From a virus, in the IMG/VR virus record IMGVR_UViG_3300037153_000540, positions 1 through 52,429 of that record: a stretch of DNA of 52,429 bases; one strand, given 5' to 3'. The number at the start of each line of letters is the position of its first letter. The first letter of the stretch is position 1. A program made the translations under genes and the position numbers. Of the stretch, positions 20,037 through 42,765 are shown in pieces. The notes beneath the pieces are model-generated. The model was not told where the DNA came from. It made no database searches and was given only the letters and a program-made list of their open reading frames with translations.

Positions 20037-21479
20037 GTGCTCGATGACGCCGACGTGGCGCTCTCTCCTGGCTGGTGGCTTCTGCGGCTCGGCCGGAAGC
20101 TCCGCGACCGGCGTGAGCGGCTCGACCTGTGGTGGGACTACTTCACTGGCGATCACCCTCTGCCGAAGGGCCCGAAGCGGGCGACGGATGCGTACCGCGA
20201 CTTCCAGAAGAAGAGCAGGACGAACTTCTGCGAGACGGTCGCGACCGCCAGTGTGAACCGCCTGAAGGCGATCGGCATCGCCGACGAGCACGGCGACAGC
20301 GACGACGAGGCGTGGAAGTGGTGGCAGCTGAACAAGCTGGATGCCAAGCAGAAGCAGGTGTACCGCGTCGCCACGAGCCAGTCGATCGGGTATGTCATCG
20401 CCGGTCCGCACCCGCGGAACGAAAAGATCCCGCTCGTCACGGCCGAGCATCCGCGCGAGGTCATCGTCGAGGAGGACCCGGCCACCGGTGAGCGTCTCGC
20501 CGGCGTTAAGGCCTGGTACGACGACATCGCCAGGGTCGGCCGCGTGAACGTCTACCTTCCGGACAGGGTCGTGCGGTACGCCACGGACCGGCGCGGGCCG
20601 GGCCGGCTGCCGTGGGGCCGTGAGAACTGGACGCTCCTCGGGGAGACACAGCACCAGCTCGGCGCGGTGCCGGTGGTGCCCTTCCCGTGCCGACCGGATC
20701 TGGGCGAAGAGCCCGTCGCCGAGTTCCACGGCGTGCTCGACGTGCAGGACCGCGTGAACTTCGGCGTGCTGAACAGGATGACGGCGGGCCGCTACGGCGC
20801 GTTCAGGCAGGGCTTCGTCACCGGCCACAAGTTCCGGCGCGTGCAGGACCCGGAAACCGGCCTGGAGGTCATCGAGAACCCGTTCGTGCCCGATCCCGGC
20901 TCCCTGTGGGCGTCCGAGGGGAAGGACACAAGCTTCGGCTGGTCGCCGCAGACCGATCTGATGGGCTACCTGCGCGAGCACGAGACCGACATCCGCACGC
21001 TGCTGATCATGTCCAAGACACCCGCGTACTACTACGCCGGCGACTTGATCAACGTGGCGGTGGACATGATCGCCGCGCTCGACGCGATGCACATCGCGAA
21101 GGTCGAGGAGCATCAGGATGTCTTCGGTGAGGCGTGGGAAGAGGTCTTCGCGCTCTGCGCCCGGGTGGCCGGGGTCGACCGGGACTTCACCGCCTCGGAG
21201 ATGCGGTGGGCGGACCCGCGGCAGCTCAACCCGGCGGTCCTGGCCGACGCGGCCACGAAGAAGAAGTCGATCGGTTACCCGCTCGCGGTGCTGGCCGAGG
21301 ATCTCGGTGAGTCGCCGCAGCGCGTCAACCGGATCACCTCGGAGGCGGCCGCTGACGCGCTGCTGGCCGCGGCCACCGCGCCGGCCGTTCCGCCGCCGGG
21401 CCAGCCAGTACCGACGCCGCCGGTCACCGCGCCGACCAACCAGGGCCCCGTACGGGCCCCCGCGGCCGCTCGGGCATAG
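20037..21479 (+). CDS. portal protein (SPP1 Gp6-like)
   Basis: A 480-residue protein, the usual length. LDLWWDYFTGDHPLPKGPKR, FCETVATASVNRLKAIGIAD, the GAVPVVPFPCRPD strand and the long helix PAYYYAGDLINVAVDMIAAL match SPP1-type portals, the dodecameric ring through which DNA enters and leaves. The tail is Pro/Ala-rich. Confidence 0.9.
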   Translation: MLDDADVALSPGWWLLRLGRKLRDRRERLDLWWDYFTGDHPLPKGPKRATDAYRDFQKKSRTNFCETVATASVNRLKAIGIADEHGDSDDEAWKWWQLNKLDAKQKQVYRVATSQSIGYVIAGPHPRNEKIPLVTAEHPREVIVEEDPATGERLAGVKAWYDDIARVGRVNVYLPDRVVRYATDRRGPGRLPWGRENWTLLGETQHQLGAVPVVPFPCRPDLGEEPVAEFHGVLDVQDRVNFGVLNRMTAGRYGAFRQGFVTGHKFRRVQDPETGLEVIENPFVPDPGSLWASEGKDTSFGWSPQTDLMGYLREHETDIRTLLIMSKTPAYYYAGDLINVAVDMIAALDAMHIAKVEEHQDVFGEAWEEVFALCARVAGVDRDFTASEMRWADPRQLNPAVLADAATKKKSIGYPLAVLAEDLGESPQRVNRITSEAAADALLAAATAPAVPPPGQPVPTPPVTAPTNQGPVRAPAAARA

Positions 21480-21482
21480 CCG

Positions 21483-23246
21483 ATGAGCCTCGACGAACAG
21501 GCGGCGCTGATCGTGGCGTTCAACACCGCCGAGAAGCGGGTCCGTGCGCATCTGGTCGCGTACGTGCTGGGCTTGTTCGGTGGCCTCGGCTCGTGGCGGG
21601 ACCGCGACAAGGCACGGTTCGCCGCCCAGGTGACGCCGGTCGTGGCCGGTGCACAGCGTCAGGTCGCTTCGCTGATGGACGCGTACCTGGCGCGGCTGCT
21701 GTCGGACATGCGCGGCCGCCCTGCCCGCCCGGCCGGGGCCATCCCGGACGTGAGCCGGCTGCGTGGCGTCGACCCGGCCATCGTGTATGGCCGGCCGTTC
21801 GACACCGTGTGGGCTGAGCTCGCTGAAGGCCGTGACTTCGAGCAGGCGCTGGCGGCCGGGCGGCTGCGGGCCGAGCAGATCACCAAGACGGATCTGCAGC
21901 TCGCGGAGACGCACACGGCACGCGCGCTGCTCGAGGACGACCGCGACGTGGTCGGGTACCGGCGTGTGCTGACCGGCACGACATCGTGTGGGCTGTGTGT
22001 GGTTGCCTCGACGCAGCGGTACCACCGCGGTGAGCTGCTGCCGATCCACCCAGGCTGCGTACCCGAAGGGACGCCGGTCGCCGCGCGCGATGTCCTAGCC
22101 GTCACGCGCCGGAAGTATGCCGGAGAACTCTCCGTCATCCGTACGACCTCGGGCGATGAGGTAACCGTCACCGCGAACCACCCGGTACTCACCGACCAGG
22201 GATGGATCCCTGGTCACGTCGTTCGCGAAGGCGATTACGTAGTCCGCAGCGCGGGCGGTCATCGGATGGTTGGTCGTGGCCCACAGGAAAGCGATCGCCC
22301 AGTTTTGGCCGAGGATGTATGGCGTTCGGCGAGTGTGGCGGGGCTTGTTCAGGTGCCACTCGCCGCCGAGGATTTCCACGGCGACGGAGCCGATGGCGAA
22401 GTCGAGATTGTACGGACCGACCGCCACCTCGCGCCGGTAGGGGATGTCTCGTTCGGTCAGCCACTCGGCGAATCGCTGCTCGTGGACGGACATGGCCGGG
22501 GGCGCCTTCTCTCGCCCGGCGGCTACGCGGCACCGTTCATCCCAGGTGGCCTTACGGCCTCGCGAAGCATCATGGGCAGCGCGGGCCTGAGCGGCGCGCT
22601 CCTCGGAGGTCATCTGTCCAGCGCGCACGAGGCCCGCTTGGGAGCGGTCGCGACGGGGAACCTTGCGGTCCTGGAGAAGGCGGGAGATGGCGTCTCGCTG
22701 GACTCCGTACTTCTCGGCCAGCGCGAGTTCGGACAGGCCGTCGAGGTAGCCCTGAACGACCTCATCGGCAGGCAGCTCGCGCCACGTCCCACGTCGGCGC
22801 GTTTCGATCCCCCGGCGGCGGAGTTCACGGGCGAGGGTCGTCGCGCCTACGCCGTGCTTGGTCGCCGCTTGCTTGATCGACTGGCAGGACAGGTAGAGCT
22901 GGACCGCGTTGTCGAGGTTCGCCGGGTCGACTACTCGGGGCATGTCTACAACCTCCATACGGCCGAGGGATGGTATTCGGCCAACAGTCACATCATATCT
23001 AACTGTGACTGCGGTATCGCGCCGATCCTCGGCGACACCGACCCAGGCCACGTCATCAACGCCCCGTTGCTGGAGGACGTGCACGACCGCATCCAAGAGC
23101 GGTTCGGTGTCTCGGACCGCAGCGGGCGCAAGCCGATCGACTACCGGGATCTGCTCGTTACGCATCAGCACGGCGAGATCGGGCCAGTGATCGCCGTGAG
23201 GGGGCAAAGCTGGACCGGCCCGGCAGACGTCAGCCGTAACGCTTGA
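21483..23246 (+). CDS. MuF-like minor capsid protein interrupted by an intein
   Basis: A 587-residue precursor. Residues 1-191 and 508-587 form a MuF-type minor head protein: RALLEDDRDVVGYRRVLTGT, CGLCVVASTQRYHRGELLPI and HPG join across the intein to CDCGIAPI, the conserved HPxCxC element. Residues 192-507 are the intein. Splicing would give a 271-residue protein. The C-terminal codons (VIAVRGQSWTGPADVSRNA) overlap an antisense HNH gene by 17 bp, and a similar sequence, probably the older end, lies beyond that gene. Confidence 0.88.
   Translation: MSLDEQAALIVAFNTAEKRVRAHLVAYVLGLFGGLGSWRDRDKARFAAQVTPVVAGAQRQVASLMDAYLARLLSDMRGRPARPAGAIPDVSRLRGVDPAIVYGRPFDTVWAELAEGRDFEQALAAGRLRAEQITKTDLQLAETHTARALLEDDRDVVGYRRVLTGTTSCGLCVVASTQRYHRGELLPIHPGCVPEGTPVAARDVLAVTRRKYAGELSVIRTTSGDEVTVTANHPVLTDQGWIPGHVVREGDYVVRSAGGHRMVGRGPQESDRPVLAEDVWRSASVAGLVQVPLAAEDFHGDGADGEVEIVRTDRHLAPVGDVSFGQPLGESLLVDGHGRGRLLSPGGYAAPFIPGGLTASRSIMGSAGLSGALLGGHLSSAHEARLGAVATGNLAVLEKAGDGVSLDSVLLGQREFGQAVEVALNDLIGRQLAPRPTSARFDPPAAEFTGEGRRAYAVLGRRLLDRLAGQVELDRVVEVRRVDYSGHVYNLHTAEGWYSANSHIISNCDCGIAPILGDTDPGHVINAPLLEDVHDRIQERFGVSDRSGRKPIDYRDLLVTHQHGEIGPVIAVRGQSWTGPADVSRNA
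22056..23003 (+). mobile_element. intein in the MuF gene (316 residues)
   Basis: Starts at Cys192 (CVPEGTPVAARDVL, block A). Block B is GDEVTVTANHPVLTDQGW with T230-x-x-H233. Block F is VYNLHTAEGWYSAN, and the end is IISN507 followed by Cys508 as +1 residue. The penultimate residue is Ser rather than the usual His, a variant tolerated in some inteins. The middle (about residues 258-475) has no recognisable endonuclease on this strand; the antisense strand encodes one. The insertion point is the most conserved motif of the host protein, as is usual for inteins. Confidence 0.88.
22095..22958 (-). CDS. antisense Vsr/DUF559-like homing endonuclease inside the intein
   Basis: A 287-residue frame lying wholly within the intein DNA on the opposite strand, codon-for-codon in register with the intein frame. 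Two helix-turn-helix motifs (QSIKQAATKHGVGATTLARE, residues 26-45; SELALAEKYGVQRDAISRLL, 76-95) precede a nuclease core: E160, VGPYNLDFAIG with D186, VAVEILGGEWH with E195 and H202, then RAADYVIAFA. This is the Vsr-like fold used by one class of homing endonucleases. ATG at 22943 is an alternative start. A -10-like TATGAT lies upstream at 22997-22992. The protein signature is far stronger than expected for a chance antisense frame. Confidence 0.8.
   Translation of the reverse strand: MEVVDMPRVVDPANLDNAVQLYLSCQSIKQAATKHGVGATTLARELRRRGIETRRRGTWRELPADEVVQGYLDGLSELALAEKYGVQRDAISRLLQDRKVPRRDRSQAGLVRAGQMTSEERAAQARAAHDASRGRKATWDERCRVAAGREKAPPAMSVHEQRFAEWLTERDIPYRREVAVGPYNLDFAIGSVAVEILGGEWHLNKPRHTRRTPYILGQNWAIAFLWATTNHPMTARAADYVIAFANDVTRDPSLVGEYRVVRGDGYLIARGRTDDGEFSGILPARDG
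22986..23010. promoter_or_regulatory. inverted repeat across the intein C-terminal splice junction
   Basis: AGTCACA (22986-22992) and TGTGACT (23004-23010) flank an 11-bp AT-rich centre. The right arm is the first codons of the C-extein and the junction lies at 23003/23004. TATGAT on the minus strand falls inside, so the site may act as promoter/operator for the antisense endonuclease or be part of its target. Confidence 0.45.
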
Positions 23247-23874
23247 GGATCTCCTTCGCCCAGGCAACGAGATCGGGTACTCGCTGGCCACTCGGCTGAG
23301 ACGTGATCCATAGTTCGAGGTTTTCGGGTCGGTTGTCGTCCCGGACCCCATTGATGTGGTGGACGTTCTCGCCTGGCAGCAATGGTCGGCCGAGAATCTG
23401 CTCCATGACGAGTCGATGCTCGAAGACGTAGCCGCCTCGGTATGCAGCGATGTGGTCTGAGACGCGGAGCAGGATGTAGCCCTTGCGATCCATGATCCGC
23501 CCGTCGCGCAAAGGTGCCTCGAATGGGACGCCGCGACGTTGCCGATCGTAGTGAAAAGCGCAGAACCCCTTCGCGTAGAACTTGCGTTCGCAGTCGGCGA
23601 CCGAGCACAGACCGGTGGTCGAGTAGAGGCGAGCGGGCGGTGGCTCAAGGGGACGCCCCATCCGAACGCGTTCCTTATGCATCTTGCACATCCCGCGTTC
23701 GTAAGTGGCCGAGTCGCGCTGACACCCGTCCACCACGCACCCCGGCTTCGGCATCTTGCGCGGCAGTAGCGCAACGTTGACGGGTTTACCGGCGCGCTGC
23801 CGCTGGTAGTGGCCGGGACAAAGCCCGCGAGCGCGGGCTGGGCGGTCGCAAGGCTCTGCGATACACGTACTCAT
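23230..23874 (-). CDS. HNH homing endonuclease with zinc fingers, antisense to MuF end
   Basis: A 214-residue protein. Three small Cys/His fingers (CIAEPCDRPARARGLCPGHY; CVVDGCQRDSATYERGMCKM; CSVADCERKFYAKGFCAFHY) precede the HNH core (VFEHRLVMEQILGRPLLPGE, NVHHINGVRDDNRPENLELW). The gene converges on MuF and its stop overlaps the MuF stop region by 17 bp. A TAAACT box lies 7 nt before the ATG, suggesting leaderless expression from its own promoter. Confidence 0.88.
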   Translation of the reverse strand: MSTCIAEPCDRPARARGLCPGHYQRQRAGKPVNVALLPRKMPKPGCVVDGCQRDSATYERGMCKMHKERVRMGRPLEPPPARLYSTTGLCSVADCERKFYAKGFCAFHYDRQRRGVPFEAPLRDGRIMDRKGYILLRVSDHIAAYRGGYVFEHRLVMEQILGRPLLPGENVHHINGVRDDNRPENLELWITSQPSGQRVPDLVAWAKEILKRYG

Positions 23875-23884
23875 GCGCAGAGTT

Positions 23885-23950
23885 TACGTCGTTCTCGCCG
23901 TGCGCGGCCATGAGTTCCGCGCACAACCTGACCTACCCGCCTCGGCGGGG
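23885..23950 (+). pseudogene. probable relic of the original MuF 3' end
   Basis: Reads VYVVLAVRGHEFRAQPDLPA, which aligns with the current MuF end PVIAVRGQSWTGPADVS (six identities in 16, with I/L, W/F and V/L exchanges). It lies just outside the 5' end of the antisense HNH gene. I interpret it as the older 3' end, displaced when the HNH cassette inserted. Confidence 0.5.
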
Positions 23951-23952
23951 AA

Positions 23953-24000
23953 GCGCTACGGCCGCGCTGAAGGCCGGTGCAACACCGACGGGTTCACGGA
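23953..24000 (+). promoter_or_regulatory. repeated leader element, copy 2 (before scaffold)
   Basis: Second copy of the element at 17829-17873, ending 6 nt before the scaffold start. Its central hairpin is CGGTG-CAA-CACCG. See copy 1. Confidence 0.5.
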
Positions 24001-24006
24001 GAAAAC

Positions 24007-24723
24007 ATGTCTGCTCTCAACCTGCCCATTCATCCCTTCACGGGCCTGCGCGCGATCGGCGTGCTTCCGTCCGGCCGGATCGTATGGCCGGTGCTCGGCG
24101 GCAACGGTCAGGGCGATGGCGGTGGTTCTGGCGGCTCGGGCTCCGGCTCGGGCGGCGGGGCTGGCACGGGTCAGGGCGGCGCCGGCGACGGCGGTGGCCA
24201 GGGCGGGAGCGGCGGCAACAACGACGACGGTAAGTCGGACAGGACGTTCACGCAGGCCGACCTCGACCGGATCGTGGCCGAGCGGCTGACGCGCGAGCGG
24301 GGCAAGTACGGCGATTACGAGGCGCTCAAGACCAAGGCCGAGAAGCTCGACCAGCTCGAAGCCGAACGCGCGAGCGACGCGGAGAAGGCCGCCAAGAAGG
24401 CCGGCGACGACGCCGCGGCGGCGGTCCGCAGCGAGCTCGAACCGCAGATGCTGCGCCTGGAGGTCGCGCTGGCCAAGGGCCTGCCGGCCGAGCTCGGCGC
24501 GCGGGTGCTGTCGGCGGCCAAGCGGCTCGTCGGCGCGACGCGTGAGGAGCTGGAGGCGGACGCGGCCGAGTTCTTCAAGGCCGCGCCGATCAGTGTCGGC
24601 CAGCAGCATGGCGGCAACGGCAACGGCTTCGACCAGGGCTCCCGCGGAGGCGGCGGCACGGGCAAGCCGACGGTGGCCAGCGGCGCGGATCTGTACGCGC
24701 AGCGCCACAGCAAGAAGACCTGA
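24007..24723 (+). CDS. head scaffolding protein
   Basis: A 238-residue protein. After a short start there is a Gly/Ser-rich region (residues about 35-75), then a charged coiled coil (AERLTRERGKYGDYEALKTK and following) and a C-terminal helical segment. The composition and the place between portal/MuF and the capsid genes fit a scaffold. The start at 24007 is next to the leader element; an upstream ATG at 23977 would lie inside it. Confidence 0.75.
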   Translation: MSALNLPIHPFTGLRAIGVLPSGRIVWPVLGGNGQGDGGGSGGSGSGSGGGAGTGQGGAGDGGGQGGSGGNNDDGKSDRTFTQADLDRIVAERLTRERGKYGDYEALKTKAEKLDQLEAERASDAEKAAKKAGDDAAAAVRSELEPQMLRLEVALAKGLPAELGARVLSAAKRLVGATREELEADAAEFFKAAPISVGQQHGGNGNGFDQGSRGGGGTGKPTVASGADLYAQRHSKKT

Positions 24724-24740
24724 ACCCCAGAGAGGGAACG

Positions 24741-25457
24741 ATGGATCTCAGCATCAGGACTGAGACGTTCGGCCAGGAAGACCAGTCCTGGCTGGGATCT
24801 CAGCACGGCACTGACATGGCGCGGAGCATCACGCTCGACACCAGCGCCTTCACCGCGAACACGCACTACCCGAACGGCTACCTGCTGTCCGGCCTCCCGC
24901 TCGGCAAGATCACCTCTTCCGGCAAGTACGGGCCGTACGCGGGCAACGCCGCCGAGGTGCAGACCGTCACGATCACCGGCGGACCGACGGGCGGCACGTT
25001 CACCCTCACCTTCGACGGCGAGACCACGGGCGCCATCGCCTACAACGCCGCGGCCAGCGCGGTGCAGACCGCGCTGGAAGGGCTGTCGAACGTCAACACG
25101 GGAGACGTGACGTGCGCGGGTGGCGCGCTGCCCGGGGCGGGCGTGACGGTCACGTTCGCGGGCCGGTTCCTCGGCAAGAACGTCCCGCAGATGACAGCCG
25201 CGTCCGGGTCGCTGACCGGCGGCACCACGCCGACCGCGTCGGTTGCCACGACCACCGGCGGCGGTAGCGGCTCGTCCGACGGCACCGAGACCCTCGCCGG
25301 GTTCCTGCTCGGCGCGGTCCGCGTCAACACGCTCGACAACACCGTCGACCCGCAGGGAGCCCTGCTGATCCACGGCGTGGTCGTGGCGTCCAAGCTGCCC
25401 ATCGCTGTCGACGCGGCCGGGCAGGCCAACGTCGCCGGCCGGATCTACTTCGCCTGA
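24741..25457 (+). CDS. head decoration protein with an inserted beta domain
   Basis: A 238-residue protein. The D-like decoration fold is split: residues about 26-66 (RSITLDTSAFTANTHYPNGY ... GKYGPYAG) and 180-238 (DGTETLAGFLLGAVRV ... NVAGRIYFA). Between them (about 70-175) is a beta-sandwich insert (VQTVTITGGPTGGTFTLTFD, ATTGAIAYNAAASAVQTAL-like) that would project from the capsid surface. Decoration trimers stabilise the shell. Confidence 0.75.
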   Translation: MDLSIRTETFGQEDQSWLGSQHGTDMARSITLDTSAFTANTHYPNGYLLSGLPLGKITSSGKYGPYAGNAAEVQTVTITGGPTGGTFTLTFDGETTGAIAYNAAASAVQTALEGLSNVNTGDVTCAGGALPGAGVTVTFAGRFLGKNVPQMTAASGSLTGGTTPTASVATTTGGGSGSSDGTETLAGFLLGAVRVNTLDNTVDPQGALLIHGVVVASKLPIAVDAAGQANVAGRIYFA

Positions 25458-30059: not shown

Positions 30060-30608
30060 GTGGCCAGAACCGTTATCTGTAAAGACTGCCGGGGATCATT
30101 CGAAGCTGGACCTACCGGAGTCTTGCCCACGCGATGCCAGCCATGCCGTAAAACATGGAGGGCCGCACAGCAGCGGGCCGATCAAGGCCGGAGAAACGAG
30201 CAGCAGAGGCGCAGGAGAAAGGCGGCGGCAGAGGCCAGGGAGGCGCTGCCCAGCCCCTCCCTCATATGCGAGATGTGCGGTGTGACGTTCAAGCGGAGAA
30301 GCCGGAAGGGCCCTCCGGCGAAGCGGTGCTATCTCTGCAACTGCTTCGTGATCGCTGTCGGTCAGGCCCGCCGCCATCATCTTGCCGATGGCGGAAGCTT
30401 CACGGGCATCGAGGTCTTCGAGCGCGACGAGTACCGGTGCTACCTGTGCGGTGGTCTGTGCACGGGCGACTACCCAGCCCCGATGTCCCCATCCATGGAC
30501 CATGTGAAGCCCATTTCAAGGGGCGGCCACCATACGCTTGAGAATGTCAAGACTGCGCACCTGCTCTGCAACATGAGCAAGGGCATCAATGAACTTGGAT
30601 CGGCTTGA
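30060..30608 (+). CDS. HNH homing endonuclease between tail chaperones
   Basis: A 182-residue protein from GTG. An N-terminal finger (CKDCRGSFEAGPTGVLPTRC), a basic linker, a second Cys cluster (CEMCGVTFKRRSRKGPPAKR then CYLC) and the HNH core (YRCYLCGGLCTGDYPAP, MDHVKPISRGGHHTLENVKT, AHLLCNMSKG) identify it. GC is lower than in the tail genes. Its last 20 bp overlap the start of the G-T fusion gene. Confidence 0.88.
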   Translation: MARTVICKDCRGSFEAGPTGVLPTRCQPCRKTWRAAQQRADQGRRNEQQRRRRKAAAEAREALPSPSLICEMCGVTFKRRSRKGPPAKRCYLCNCFVIAVGQARRHHLADGGSFTGIEVFERDEYRCYLCGGLCTGDYPAPMSPSMDHVKPISRGGHHTLENVKTAHLLCNMSKGINELGSA

Positions 30609-40629: not shown

Positions 40630-41679
40630 GTGTCAGTAGCGCTGCGCGGCAGCAGCTCGGCAGCGGTCGGCACGAACACGCTGACCCTCACCATCCCCAG
40701 CAGCGTCCAAGCCGGCGACGCGCTGTTCATCATCGCGGGCTGCGGCGACGCAGGTGTGGCGTGGGCAACCCCCGCCGGGTGGACGCTCGTCGAGCGCCGC
40801 TCGCGTGACACGTCCACGACCGGCATGATGGCCGCGATCTTCAAGAAGGTCGCGACGTCCGGAGATGCCTCCGCCTCGGTGGTGCTCACCGCATCCACCA
40901 CCGCGCACTCCGCCGGCATGGTCATCGCCTACTCCGGTACCGACATCGTCGACCCCGTGCACGTATGGGCAGGGTTCACCGAGTCTTCCGGCTCGGCGAT
41001 CAACACGCATGCGCTGCCGTCGGTGACAACGACGCTGGCCAACTGCATGATCTTCTCGGGCATCGTGGGCAAGGACTCGGCGACGACGGCGTGGACGATG
41101 CCGGCCGGGTACACGAAAGAGATCGACGTCTACTTCGCCCAGTCCGGGCGGACGACCGGCGCGATCGGCGACAAGGGGCCCGTCGCGATCGGCACGTACA
41201 ACCCCGGCAACGCCACCCAGGACGGCGCGAGCAAATACGCGTTCGCGTGGACGATCGCCGTCGCTCCGTTCTCCGCGACCCAGACCGTCCGGCCGGTCCT
41301 CGACAAGACCGTCACCAGCACGGTCGGTGTGCCGACACCCGGCGGCGGCTCGGACATCTCCTCCGACGTCGCCGCGAACGACGACACGCACTACGCCGAG
41401 CTGAGCAACTCCGGAGTCTACGAGTGCCTGTTCTCCAGCCTCGTCGACCCGGCGTCTAGCTCGGGGCACACGATCCGGTACCGTCTCGCGTTCGGCGGCG
41501 GCGCGACAGCGGGATCGTCCTCGACCACACTCCGCCAGGGCTCTACGGTCATCGCGACCTGGACCGATACCGCGACCGGCAGCTTCGGGGACTTCACACA
41601 CACGCTCACCGGCACGCAGGCCGACGCGATCACAGACTACTCGGATTTGAGAGTGAGATTTTCTGCCACAGTCTCTTGA
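40630..41679 (+). CDS. fibre-like tail protein with a replaced 3' end
   Basis: A 349-residue beta-rich protein (DALFIIAGCGDAGVAWATPA; SAGMVIAYSGTDIVDPVHVW). Its last 13 codons give YSDLRVRFSATVS in unusually low-GC codons (TTG, AGA, TTT, TCT). An equivalent in GC-rich codons, YSDLRIRFTATVS, lies at 42421-42462 on the other side of the antisense HNH gene. Eleven of 13 residues are identical. The gene therefore ends in a recoded copy that overlaps the endonuclease. Confidence 0.75.
   Translation: MSVALRGSSSAAVGTNTLTLTIPSSVQAGDALFIIAGCGDAGVAWATPAGWTLVERRSRDTSTTGMMAAIFKKVATSGDASASVVLTASTTAHSAGMVIAYSGTDIVDPVHVWAGFTESSGSAINTHALPSVTTTLANCMIFSGIVGKDSATTAWTMPAGYTKEIDVYFAQSGRTTGAIGDKGPVAIGTYNPGNATQDGASKYAFAWTIAVAPFSATQTVRPVLDKTVTSTVGVPTPGGGSDISSDVAANDDTHYAELSNSGVYECLFSSLVDPASSSGHTIRYRLAFGGGATAGSSSTTLRQGSTVIATWTDTATGSFGDFTHTLTGTQADAITDYSDLRVRFSATVS
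41636..41642 (+). repeat. short direct repeat at cassette edge (left)
   Basis: ACTACTC, repeated at 42419-42425. The HNH stop codon (TAG on the minus strand, 41639-41637) is formed from this sequence. Confidence 0.5.
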
Positions 41680-42377
41680 TGCGGGCAATAGCCGTAGAAC
41701 CCGTAGGCAGAATTGCAGTTATGGCACAAGACTCGAAACCCTTCAGGGAAACCGTTGTCTCGCAGCCACCTATAGAAACCAGCCCCGACGCCTATCCCTT
41801 GTGCGCGCAATTGCTTGCGATGCTCCGCGCCGTCGCCGTTAATGTGATCTATCGCAAGGAACTGGATGGTCGTCTCTGCGCAGCACACGCAGACAGGGCC
41901 GCCGTACGCGGCGAACACGTCGGCGCGCAGCTCTTGGTGGCGTTTGCGGGCGCGCTGGTTCCGCAGGTCCTTGTGTTCTCTGTTCCACTTGTTGATGCGC
42001 TCACGGACCGAAGGATCCGCACGGTACTGCTCGCGGCGACGTTGGCGTGATCGTTCGCGGGTGGCATCCTTGCGGGCCTGGCGTTCCAACTCTCGCTGCT
42101 CCAGATAAGCGGCGTACTCCTCAGGAGTTCTTCCTTTGAGGCGTCTGCGCTCTTTGCGGGCCTCGACCATGCATGCATCGGAGCAGTAGTTCTTGCTGCG
42201 CGATCTCATTAGTGGTGTTGAGCACCAAAGACAATTCGTTACTTTAAGGGTCGCTCGGCCTCGCCTACGCCGCGCCTCCTGGATGCACTTCTTAGAGCAG
42301 AAACGTTTGATTGATCTGCCGCTGATTTGGTCGCCGCATACTTCGCATTGCCGCTCTTCGGGAGGCGTTTCCTGCAT
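41637..42377 (-). CDS. HNH homing endonuclease antisense to tail gene end
   Basis: A 246-residue protein. Two N-terminal fingers (CEVCGDQISGRSIKRFCSKK and CLWCSTPLMRSRSKNYCSDA), a long basic linker and an HNH-type core (VCVCCAETTIQFLAIDHING, LCHNCNSAYGFYGYC). The last codons (ENLTLKSE, stop) overlap the recoded end of the tail gene by 43 bp. Upstream on its strand a TATCCT box lies about 10 nt from the ATG, so it probably has its own promoter. Distinctly low GC. Confidence 0.88.
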   Translation of the reverse strand: MQETPPEERQCEVCGDQISGRSIKRFCSKKCIQEARRRRGRATLKVTNCLWCSTPLMRSRSKNYCSDACMVEARKERRRLKGRTPEEYAAYLEQRELERQARKDATRERSRQRRREQYRADPSVRERINKWNREHKDLRNQRARKRHQELRADVFAAYGGPVCVCCAETTIQFLAIDHINGDGAEHRKQLRAQGIGVGAGFYRWLRDNGFPEGFRVLCHNCNSAYGFYGYCPHQETVAENLTLKSE

Positions 42378-42418: not shown

Positions 42419-42425
42419 ACTACTC
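42419..42425 (+). repeat. short direct repeat at cassette edge (right)
   Basis: ACTACTC, the partner of 41636-41642, at the start of the stranded host codons. Confidence 0.5.
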
Positions 42426-42462
42426 CGACCTGCGGATCCGTTTTACCGCGACGGTGTCGTAG
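42421..42462 (+). pseudogene. stranded original 3' end of the tail gene
   Basis: Codes YSDLRIRFTATVS and a TAG, in GC-rich codons typical of the phage. TTG of the next gene follows with no gap, showing that the original tail gene was directly coupled to it before the HNH cassette inserted. Confidence 0.7.
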
Positions 42463-42765
42463 TTGGCCGCCGTCCTCCGCGTCGCCCAGGTCGCCCTGTT
42501 CACCCCGGCGGCACCGCGGCTGCGCGTCTCGCAGGTCTCGCTGCAGGTCCCCACGCCGCCGACGGGTGGTACGACGGTTCTGCGCGTTTCGCAGGTGAAG
42601 TTCACGGCCCCGGCGCCGCCGCCAGCGGGCGTGCTGCGTGTCTCGCAGGTTCGCCTGTCCGCGCCGCTCGCGCCGGGCAGCATCCCCTACTCCGGCGTGA
42701 TGCAGGCGTCTGGGGGGAACCTGCGGAACGTCCCGATCTGGATCTCCAAGGACGGCGAGCTGTAA
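42463..42765 (+). CDS. small repeat protein of the tail-fibre region
   Basis: A 100-residue protein from TTG, starting right after the stranded TAG. Four repeats of the form LRVSQVxLxxPxxP (one with LRVAQV) make up residues 4-70, followed by GVMQASGGNLRNVPIWISKD. Repeats of this kind suggest a small extended beta structure. With its original coupling lost, its present translation is uncertain. Confidence 0.6.
   Translation: MAAVLRVAQVALFTPAAPRLRVSQVSLQVPTPPTGGTTVLRVSQVKFTAPAPPPAGVLRVSQVRLSAPLAPGSIPYSGVMQASGGNLRNVPIWISKDGEL

Follow-up and report, generated by a model that had tools for sequence, protein, structure and literature searches.

The MuF locus and its HNH gene

The DNA analysed here (the window) is a viral record of 52,429 bases (IMG/VR IMGVR_UViG_3300037153_000540), with a head module resembling that of Streptomyces phages that encodes a terminase, an SPP1-type portal, a MuF-like head maturation protein, a scaffold and a capsid. 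The MuF gene contains an intein; relatives without one align with its exteins over their whole length. An antisense HNH gene lies between MuF and the scaffold gene, and the region reads as follows.

21483-23246, plus strand: MuF-like head maturation or minor capsid gene (phrog_1522, head maturation protease, E 7e-71)
22056-23003, plus strand: intein within the MuF gene (Intein_splicing, E 1.2e-6)
23187-23246, plus strand: current, putatively replacement, MuF end, VIAVRGQSWTGPADVSRNA followed by the stop (fits the MuF C-terminal profile)
23230-23874, minus strand: HNH_3 endonuclease gene, 214 amino acids (PF13392, E 2.9e-10; phrog_20891, E 2.8e-34)
23891-23917, plus strand: VLAVRGHEF, putative stranded remnant of the old MuF end (21.4-bit profile match)
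23918-23928, plus strand: putative eroded remainder of that end, with its frame and several codons lost
23929-24006, plus strand: position of the former MuF stop (TGA 23929-23931), followed by the native scaffold-gene leader (alignment with L075, L155 and L137)
24007-24723, plus strand: head scaffolding gene, the next downstream, with an ATG start (phrog_3760, head scaffolding protein, E 2.2e-22)

The open reading frame coordinates agree with the original prediction that the HNH gene converges on plus-strand MuF and overlaps its last 17 bp. The PF13392 match scores 40.1 bits against a cut-off of 24.8, the phrog_20891 match covers the C-terminal half of the protein, and cysteine-rich repeats are found at its N-terminus. 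Its best phage relative is gp17 of Gordonia phage Kabocha (42% identity over 98% of the length). The gene lies outside the MuF intein, and no known RNA intron or RNA family was detected in 21400-24800, bar one sub-threshold match to a CRISPR repeat.

Among 142 MuF loci, an HNH gene of this subfamily occupies the site in just one contig besides the window (L137, from another metagenome), where the protein is 46% identical over nearly its full length, is again encoded antisense, and has a gene that shares 29 bp with the MuF end and is followed by the same leader. A weak remnant, GYQFTG, precedes that leader; it is only suggestive with an ungapped profile and was not picked up by the hidden Markov model (HMM) of MuF C-termini. 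None of the fetched HNH relatives beyond L137 stands beside a MuF gene, L225 being the same contig as L137. One further locus (L005) carries a different HNH gene, on the plus strand, in the gap between MuF and scaffold after an intact MuF end. Judged by its sequence, the window gene fits the free-standing HNH_3 type, with a catalytic domain, a position outside intron and intein, and sporadic occurrence at an otherwise conserved site.

The intein region has a further peculiarity, in that most of it is spanned by an antisense reading frame (22095-22949, minus strand), whose N-terminal part gives HTH-like matches and whose C-terminal part resembles, by eye, a VSR/EDxHD-type nuclease, so that intein and nuclease-like frame occupy opposite strands of the same DNA at 22056-23003. 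In Gordonia phage Vivi2 the MuF-like gene contains a homologue on its opposite strand, and minus-strand matches occur in further Gordonia MuF genes. A third HNH gene of the window (30060-30608, plus strand; PF01844, E 5e-7) is found on the sense strand between tail genes.

A stranded MuF end beyond the HNH gene

MuF reads through in frame to its current end, VIAVRGQSWTGPADVSRNA and stop. Codon adaptation of this end is low (0.7th percentile among the phage's genes), which is not diagnostic because that of the remnant is low as well; GC content does not tell the two copies apart either. The C-termini of about 140 MuF relatives gathered from viral contigs, bacterial genomes and phage records share the pattern HGExGPVLxVRxxxFTGPxD, and the frame at 23873, just beyond the HNH 5' end, reads MRRVYVVLAVRGHEFRAQPDLPAS. 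When an HMM built from 110 MuF C-termini, the window excluded, was run over the window, the MuF end itself ranked first (42 bits), followed by this downstream frame (13.4 bits, E 0.004), the next-best place having 5.4 bits. Across all loci fetched by then, the same frame was the best match outside MuF genes, at 12.4 bits with the next at 9.7.

An ungapped profile was also made from 95 MuF ends, with 1.9 million non-MuF positions as background. Over its nine best columns, which were picked post hoc, VLAVRGHEF scores 21.4 bits against 15.4 for the current MuF end in the same columns, and over all 13 columns it scores 11.6 bits, with a local p of about 2e-3. None of the 1.9 million background positions reaches its nine-column score, which corresponds to about 2e-5 for the 90 positions near the HNH 5' end. 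At the DNA level the signal is fainter: a plain local alignment of the two MuF ends is not significant, and, compared in register, they are alike at 25 of 48 nucleotides as against 10-16 at other offsets. Flank-to-flank similarity across the HNH gene is not significant either (score 33); screens of that kind missed this case and so overlook eroded ones.

The remnant is short (nine residues) and out of frame with the old stop. It agrees with the current end at only five of the nine residues, for which reason the signature seen in the tail gene and in Kabocha (below), the same protein in different codons, is not demonstrable for MuF. From HEF to the aligned old stop there are only 11 nucleotides, compared with at least 18 in relatives. 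On these matches the old MuF end is real, eroded and stranded, and the current end would be its full replacement.

The native leader

Independent support for a stranded MuF end comes from the DNA that follows it. After the remnant, some 75 bp align with the stretch from MuF stop to scaffold gene in L075 and L155, which at 59% MuF identity are the closest relatives lacking the HNH gene, and also with L137; compared with random window segments, p is <= 0.0007. The TAG stop of L075 and L155 aligns with TGA 23929-23931; since the leader of HNH-free relatives is matched right after the remnant, the old MuF stop would have stood at about 23929. The usual distance from MuF stop to scaffold start in relatives is some 40-65 bp. 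The search found no near-identical HNH-free relative of the window phage, the closest MuF being 59% identical.

The original prediction had taken the whole downstream frame, through a terminal DLPA, for the old MuF end. The VLAVRGHEF part stands, as it matches the MuF profile and adjoins the native leader; the DLPA part (23930-23941) does not, for its aligned counterpart in L075 and L155 is the intergenic hairpin and leader that follow the MuF stop, not MuF coding sequence. The same division holds for the expectation that HNH-free MuF proteins would end in this way: they do have the predicted style (SF1, for example, ends in LLAVRRHEFTGPSDVSS and stop), and the DLPA portion is again intergenic. 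It had also been proposed that HNH-free relatives matching the current end alone would speak against a stranded copy. In the event these relatives resemble both ends, and that comparison does not separate the two ideas; continuity of the leader does. The proposed geometry, in which the new end runs into the 3' end of the HNH gene and the old one is stranded at its 5' edge, is supported by the profile match and the leader together.

The same anatomy in a tail gene

The likeness to a tail gene of the same phage (40630-41679), which had also been pointed out, is confirmed: the gene now ends inside an antisense HNH-type frame, a second copy of the end lies beyond that frame, and the two share 11 of 13 residues and the stop.

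41638-41679, plus strand: current end of the tail gene, YSDLRVRFSATVS followed by the stop (low GC; codons unlike those of the stranded copy)
41637-42377, minus strand: HNH-type open reading frame, 246 amino acids (C-terminal part matches annotated phage HNH endonucleases, 38-51%)
42421-42462, plus strand: putative stranded old end of the tail gene, YSDLRIRFTATVS followed by the stop (flank-to-flank score 59)

The flank-to-flank score of 59 compares with a maximum of 51 in 3000 mispaired flanks. Between YSDLRVRFSATVS and YSDLRIRFTATVS, 11 of 13 amino acids and the stop are alike, and only 2 of 12 of those codons. Unlike the MuF copies, the tail copies are also separated by GC content, which is 0.435 at the new end (41634-41679) and 0.685 in the gene body. 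Likeness in protein and not in codons suggests that the two copies evolved apart as working gene ends before they met. A Pfam search of the 246-residue frame returned no match, and neither did a comparison of the tail protein with sequenced phages.

The frame that follows the stranded tail end and its TAG (42421-42700, plus strand) continues as VAQVALFTPAAPRLRVSQVSLQVP, which resembles the VQVSWAELEVP stretch found after this tail domain in relatives. The original tail protein may accordingly have been longer than the end at YSDLRIRFTATVS would imply.

Gordonia phages with and without the cassette

Kabocha and its HNH-free relative Gray are 98.8% identical over the matched stretch. Kabocha carries an insertion of about 811 bp, placed 57 bp before the terminase stop and containing an HNH gene and a terminase end, and Gray provides a clean empty site for it. 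In the replacement end none of the 18 residues and 15 of the 18 codons are changed (3/18 codons shared). The stranded native end, which in Kabocha sits after the 3' end of the HNH gene, is identical to Gray at 56 of 57 nucleotides, as against 39 of 57 for the attached copy. The sequences of these two phages would make them the decisive pair for the class. These cultured Gordonia phages with and without the element differ at the terminase locus by exactly this cassette, which makes the prediction testable.

The HNH-free phage ChisanaKitsune (L414 888-977) has a mosaic terminase end, with recoded bases in the half adjoining the insertion site and native ones after it, likely the scar of a cassette that was lost when the two copies of the end recombined. 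In the less closely related terminases of GMA6 and DalanDe even the residues at this end are different; against that background the purely synonymous change in Kabocha hints at selection for recoding and is no proof of it. In DalanDe (L418 344-929) an HNH gene directly follows the terminase, which ends in CSGAFAKLSLGARARLIV and stop.

Duplicated gene edges across HNH genes

Translated flanks were compared across two sets of HNH genes, 102 loci and a further 105 found by HNH motif, with mispaired flanks as the null. About ten gene edges, ends as well as starts, are duplicated across an HNH gene, which may lie on either strand, and their codons mostly differ. (Gene names in this survey are a reading of the translations.) The strongest case among the 102 loci is a duplicated 36-residue start of a portal-like gene (L243; score 142, null maximum 51). 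In the motif-found set, scores above the null maximum of 64 were obtained for an SSB-like gene start (L357), L328/L330, L297 and L320; for L346, L292 and L340 the individual p values are 0.0004-0.0017. The two copies at L320 share 4 of 15 same-residue codons.

Individual loci vary in layout. At L243 (1500-3612) the HNH gene is antisense at the start of the portal-like gene, and the attached N-terminal copy is apparently out of frame before the gene body; at L292 (816-1414) the HNH frame is fused to a stranded portal-like start, and in TAATG the stop of the HNH gene and the recoded start overlap. The methyltransferase gene at L057 (2728-4710) contains two HNH genes with the reading frame open throughout, and SEHWILVR and SEHYILIR stand on either side of the first. 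L057 and L323 were unclear and are omitted from the list of duplicated edges; matches at L033/L263 were discarded as low-complexity GC-rich sequence.

A probable homing cassette that brings its own gene edge, and its alternatives

The MuF locus thus has a gene end overlapping an antisense HNH gene, a remnant of a MuF end beyond that gene and an uninterrupted leader behind the remnant, and the same anatomy recurs in other phages, including a pair with and without the insertion. We consider it probable (about 0.8) that a homing cassette carrying a recoded MuF edge entered the gene and stranded the native end. The mobile unit, that of a free-standing HNH homing endonuclease, would extend from 23187 to about 23887 and would have entered MuF some 60 bp before its stop, at the conserved site HGEIGP|VLAVRG. 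Since it would bring along coding sequence for the remainder of MuF, with a stop within the antisense HNH gene, MuF would stay functional without splicing, while the native end, cut off behind the HNH gene, decays beside the native scaffold leader. The HNH protein presumably cuts HNH-free MuF genes near the insertion site, with a co-infecting donor repairing the break. In the founding transfer, homology in MuF may have mediated one junction and non-homologous joining the other, leaving the old end stranded, and the recoded end would remove half of the recognition site and render the carrier immune. The new MuF end could also have been acquired separately from the HNH gene.

Were the HNH gene simply inserted between MuF and scaffold, the MuF end would be original and the downstream resemblance due to chance. 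The current end does fit its family well, and L005 has an HNH gene in this very gap, on the plus strand, after an intact MuF end. However, the downstream match is the strongest among 1.9 million non-MuF positions and lies directly before the native leader, and the pattern is repeated in the tail gene and Kabocha, so that plain insertion is very unlikely. A direct duplication of the MuF end upon insertion (a long target-site duplication), with the copies diverging in place, would equally place a MuF end on each side of the HNH gene. A copy decaying without selection should change in its residues as easily as in its codons, whereas the tail and Kabocha copies keep their residues and share only 2/12 and 3/18 codons, respectively; moreover, it is the stranded Kabocha copy that matches HNH-free Gray (56/57) and the attached one that departs from it (39/57). 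We regard this origin as unlikely, and as less firmly excluded for MuF taken alone.

The piece upstream of the HNH start codon might instead be an autoregulatory operator imitating the homing site. Such an operator has been described upstream of I-TevI in phage T4, whose intron enzymes have homing-site mimics (15/20 nucleotides for I-TevI; PMC2988022). The remnant is suitably placed for such a role, just upstream of that codon. Its resemblance to MuF is nevertheless stronger in protein than in DNA and runs into the native leader, the resemblance in the tail case reaches the stop codon, and the stranded copy in Kabocha follows the 3' end of its HNH gene, all of which make an operator highly improbable. 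Much closer to the balance, and quite possible if rather short of an even chance, is that edge replacement is real and recoding is merely divergence of the donor, not selected for immunity. In fungal mitochondria such ends have indeed been interpreted as foreign DNA from other species (PMC3630166). Against this, the new Kabocha end keeps 18/18 residues with 15 codons changed at a place where the GMA6 and DalanDe terminases differ in residues, and HNH-free ChisanaKitsune retains the recoded half beside the insertion site.

Relation to known systems

The closest parallel to the replaced edges is found in fungal mitochondrial DNA, where mobile endonuclease frames with a foreign C-terminus occur in atp6 of Allomyces macrogynus and in atp6, atp9, cox2 and nad3 of Glomus sp. 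(PMC3630166). There too an endonuclease frame lies near the gene end, with a foreign end in frame and the native end stranded downstream, and residues are conserved where DNA has diverged (PMC3630166), a feature that among the phages is clear for the tail gene and Kabocha. The fungal enzymes are LAGLIDADG or GIY-YIG proteins, mitochondrial and, as described, on the same strand as the host gene (PMC3630166); the phage cases, in contrast, involve HNH enzymes on either strand and affect gene starts as well as ends. Because the HNH gene is antisense to MuF, the MuF case is filed as a variant, and not a member, of the Allomyces/Glomus type.

The free-standing, intronless homing enzymes of T4 (mob, seg) resemble the phage cases in their sporadic presence beside essential genes, and some of their frames overlap the end of a neighbouring gene; they differ in lying between genes and cutting far from the insertion site, and the available part of that account describes no stranded gene end (PMC2988022). 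The I-HmuI-like HNH genes of lactococcal Skunavirus are likewise phage homing genes, with marker exclusion measured, and a term search of the paper found no gene-edge duplication (PMC12724721). No phage description of an endonuclease with a replacement gene edge was found in the open-access literature. The anatomy is already known from the mitochondria of Allomyces and Glomus, and by that literature the phage form appears to be new.

Such cassettes would allow a selfish nuclease to occupy essential structural genes of phages without intron or intein, by bringing along the missing gene edge. They would also account for gene starts and ends that are chimeric next to HNH genes and that would lead annotation and phylogeny astray.

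In synthetic 'cleave and rescue' drives, which are CRISPR-engineered, the cassette pairs a nuclease with a recoded copy, resistant to cutting, of the part of the gene that the nuclease breaks. The likeness of the phage cassettes to these drives is one of function only. It is conceivable, with the odds falling just shy of even, that the phage elements are widespread, splice-free homing elements acting as natural recoded-rescue drives, in which the HNH gene is accompanied by a start or end, its codons scrambled, of the essential gene that it cuts; the gene would be kept working, the carrier would be immune, and loss of the cassette would leave resistant HNH-free alleles, as in ChisanaKitsune. 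They would then offer a natural counterpart to recoded-rescue gene drives.
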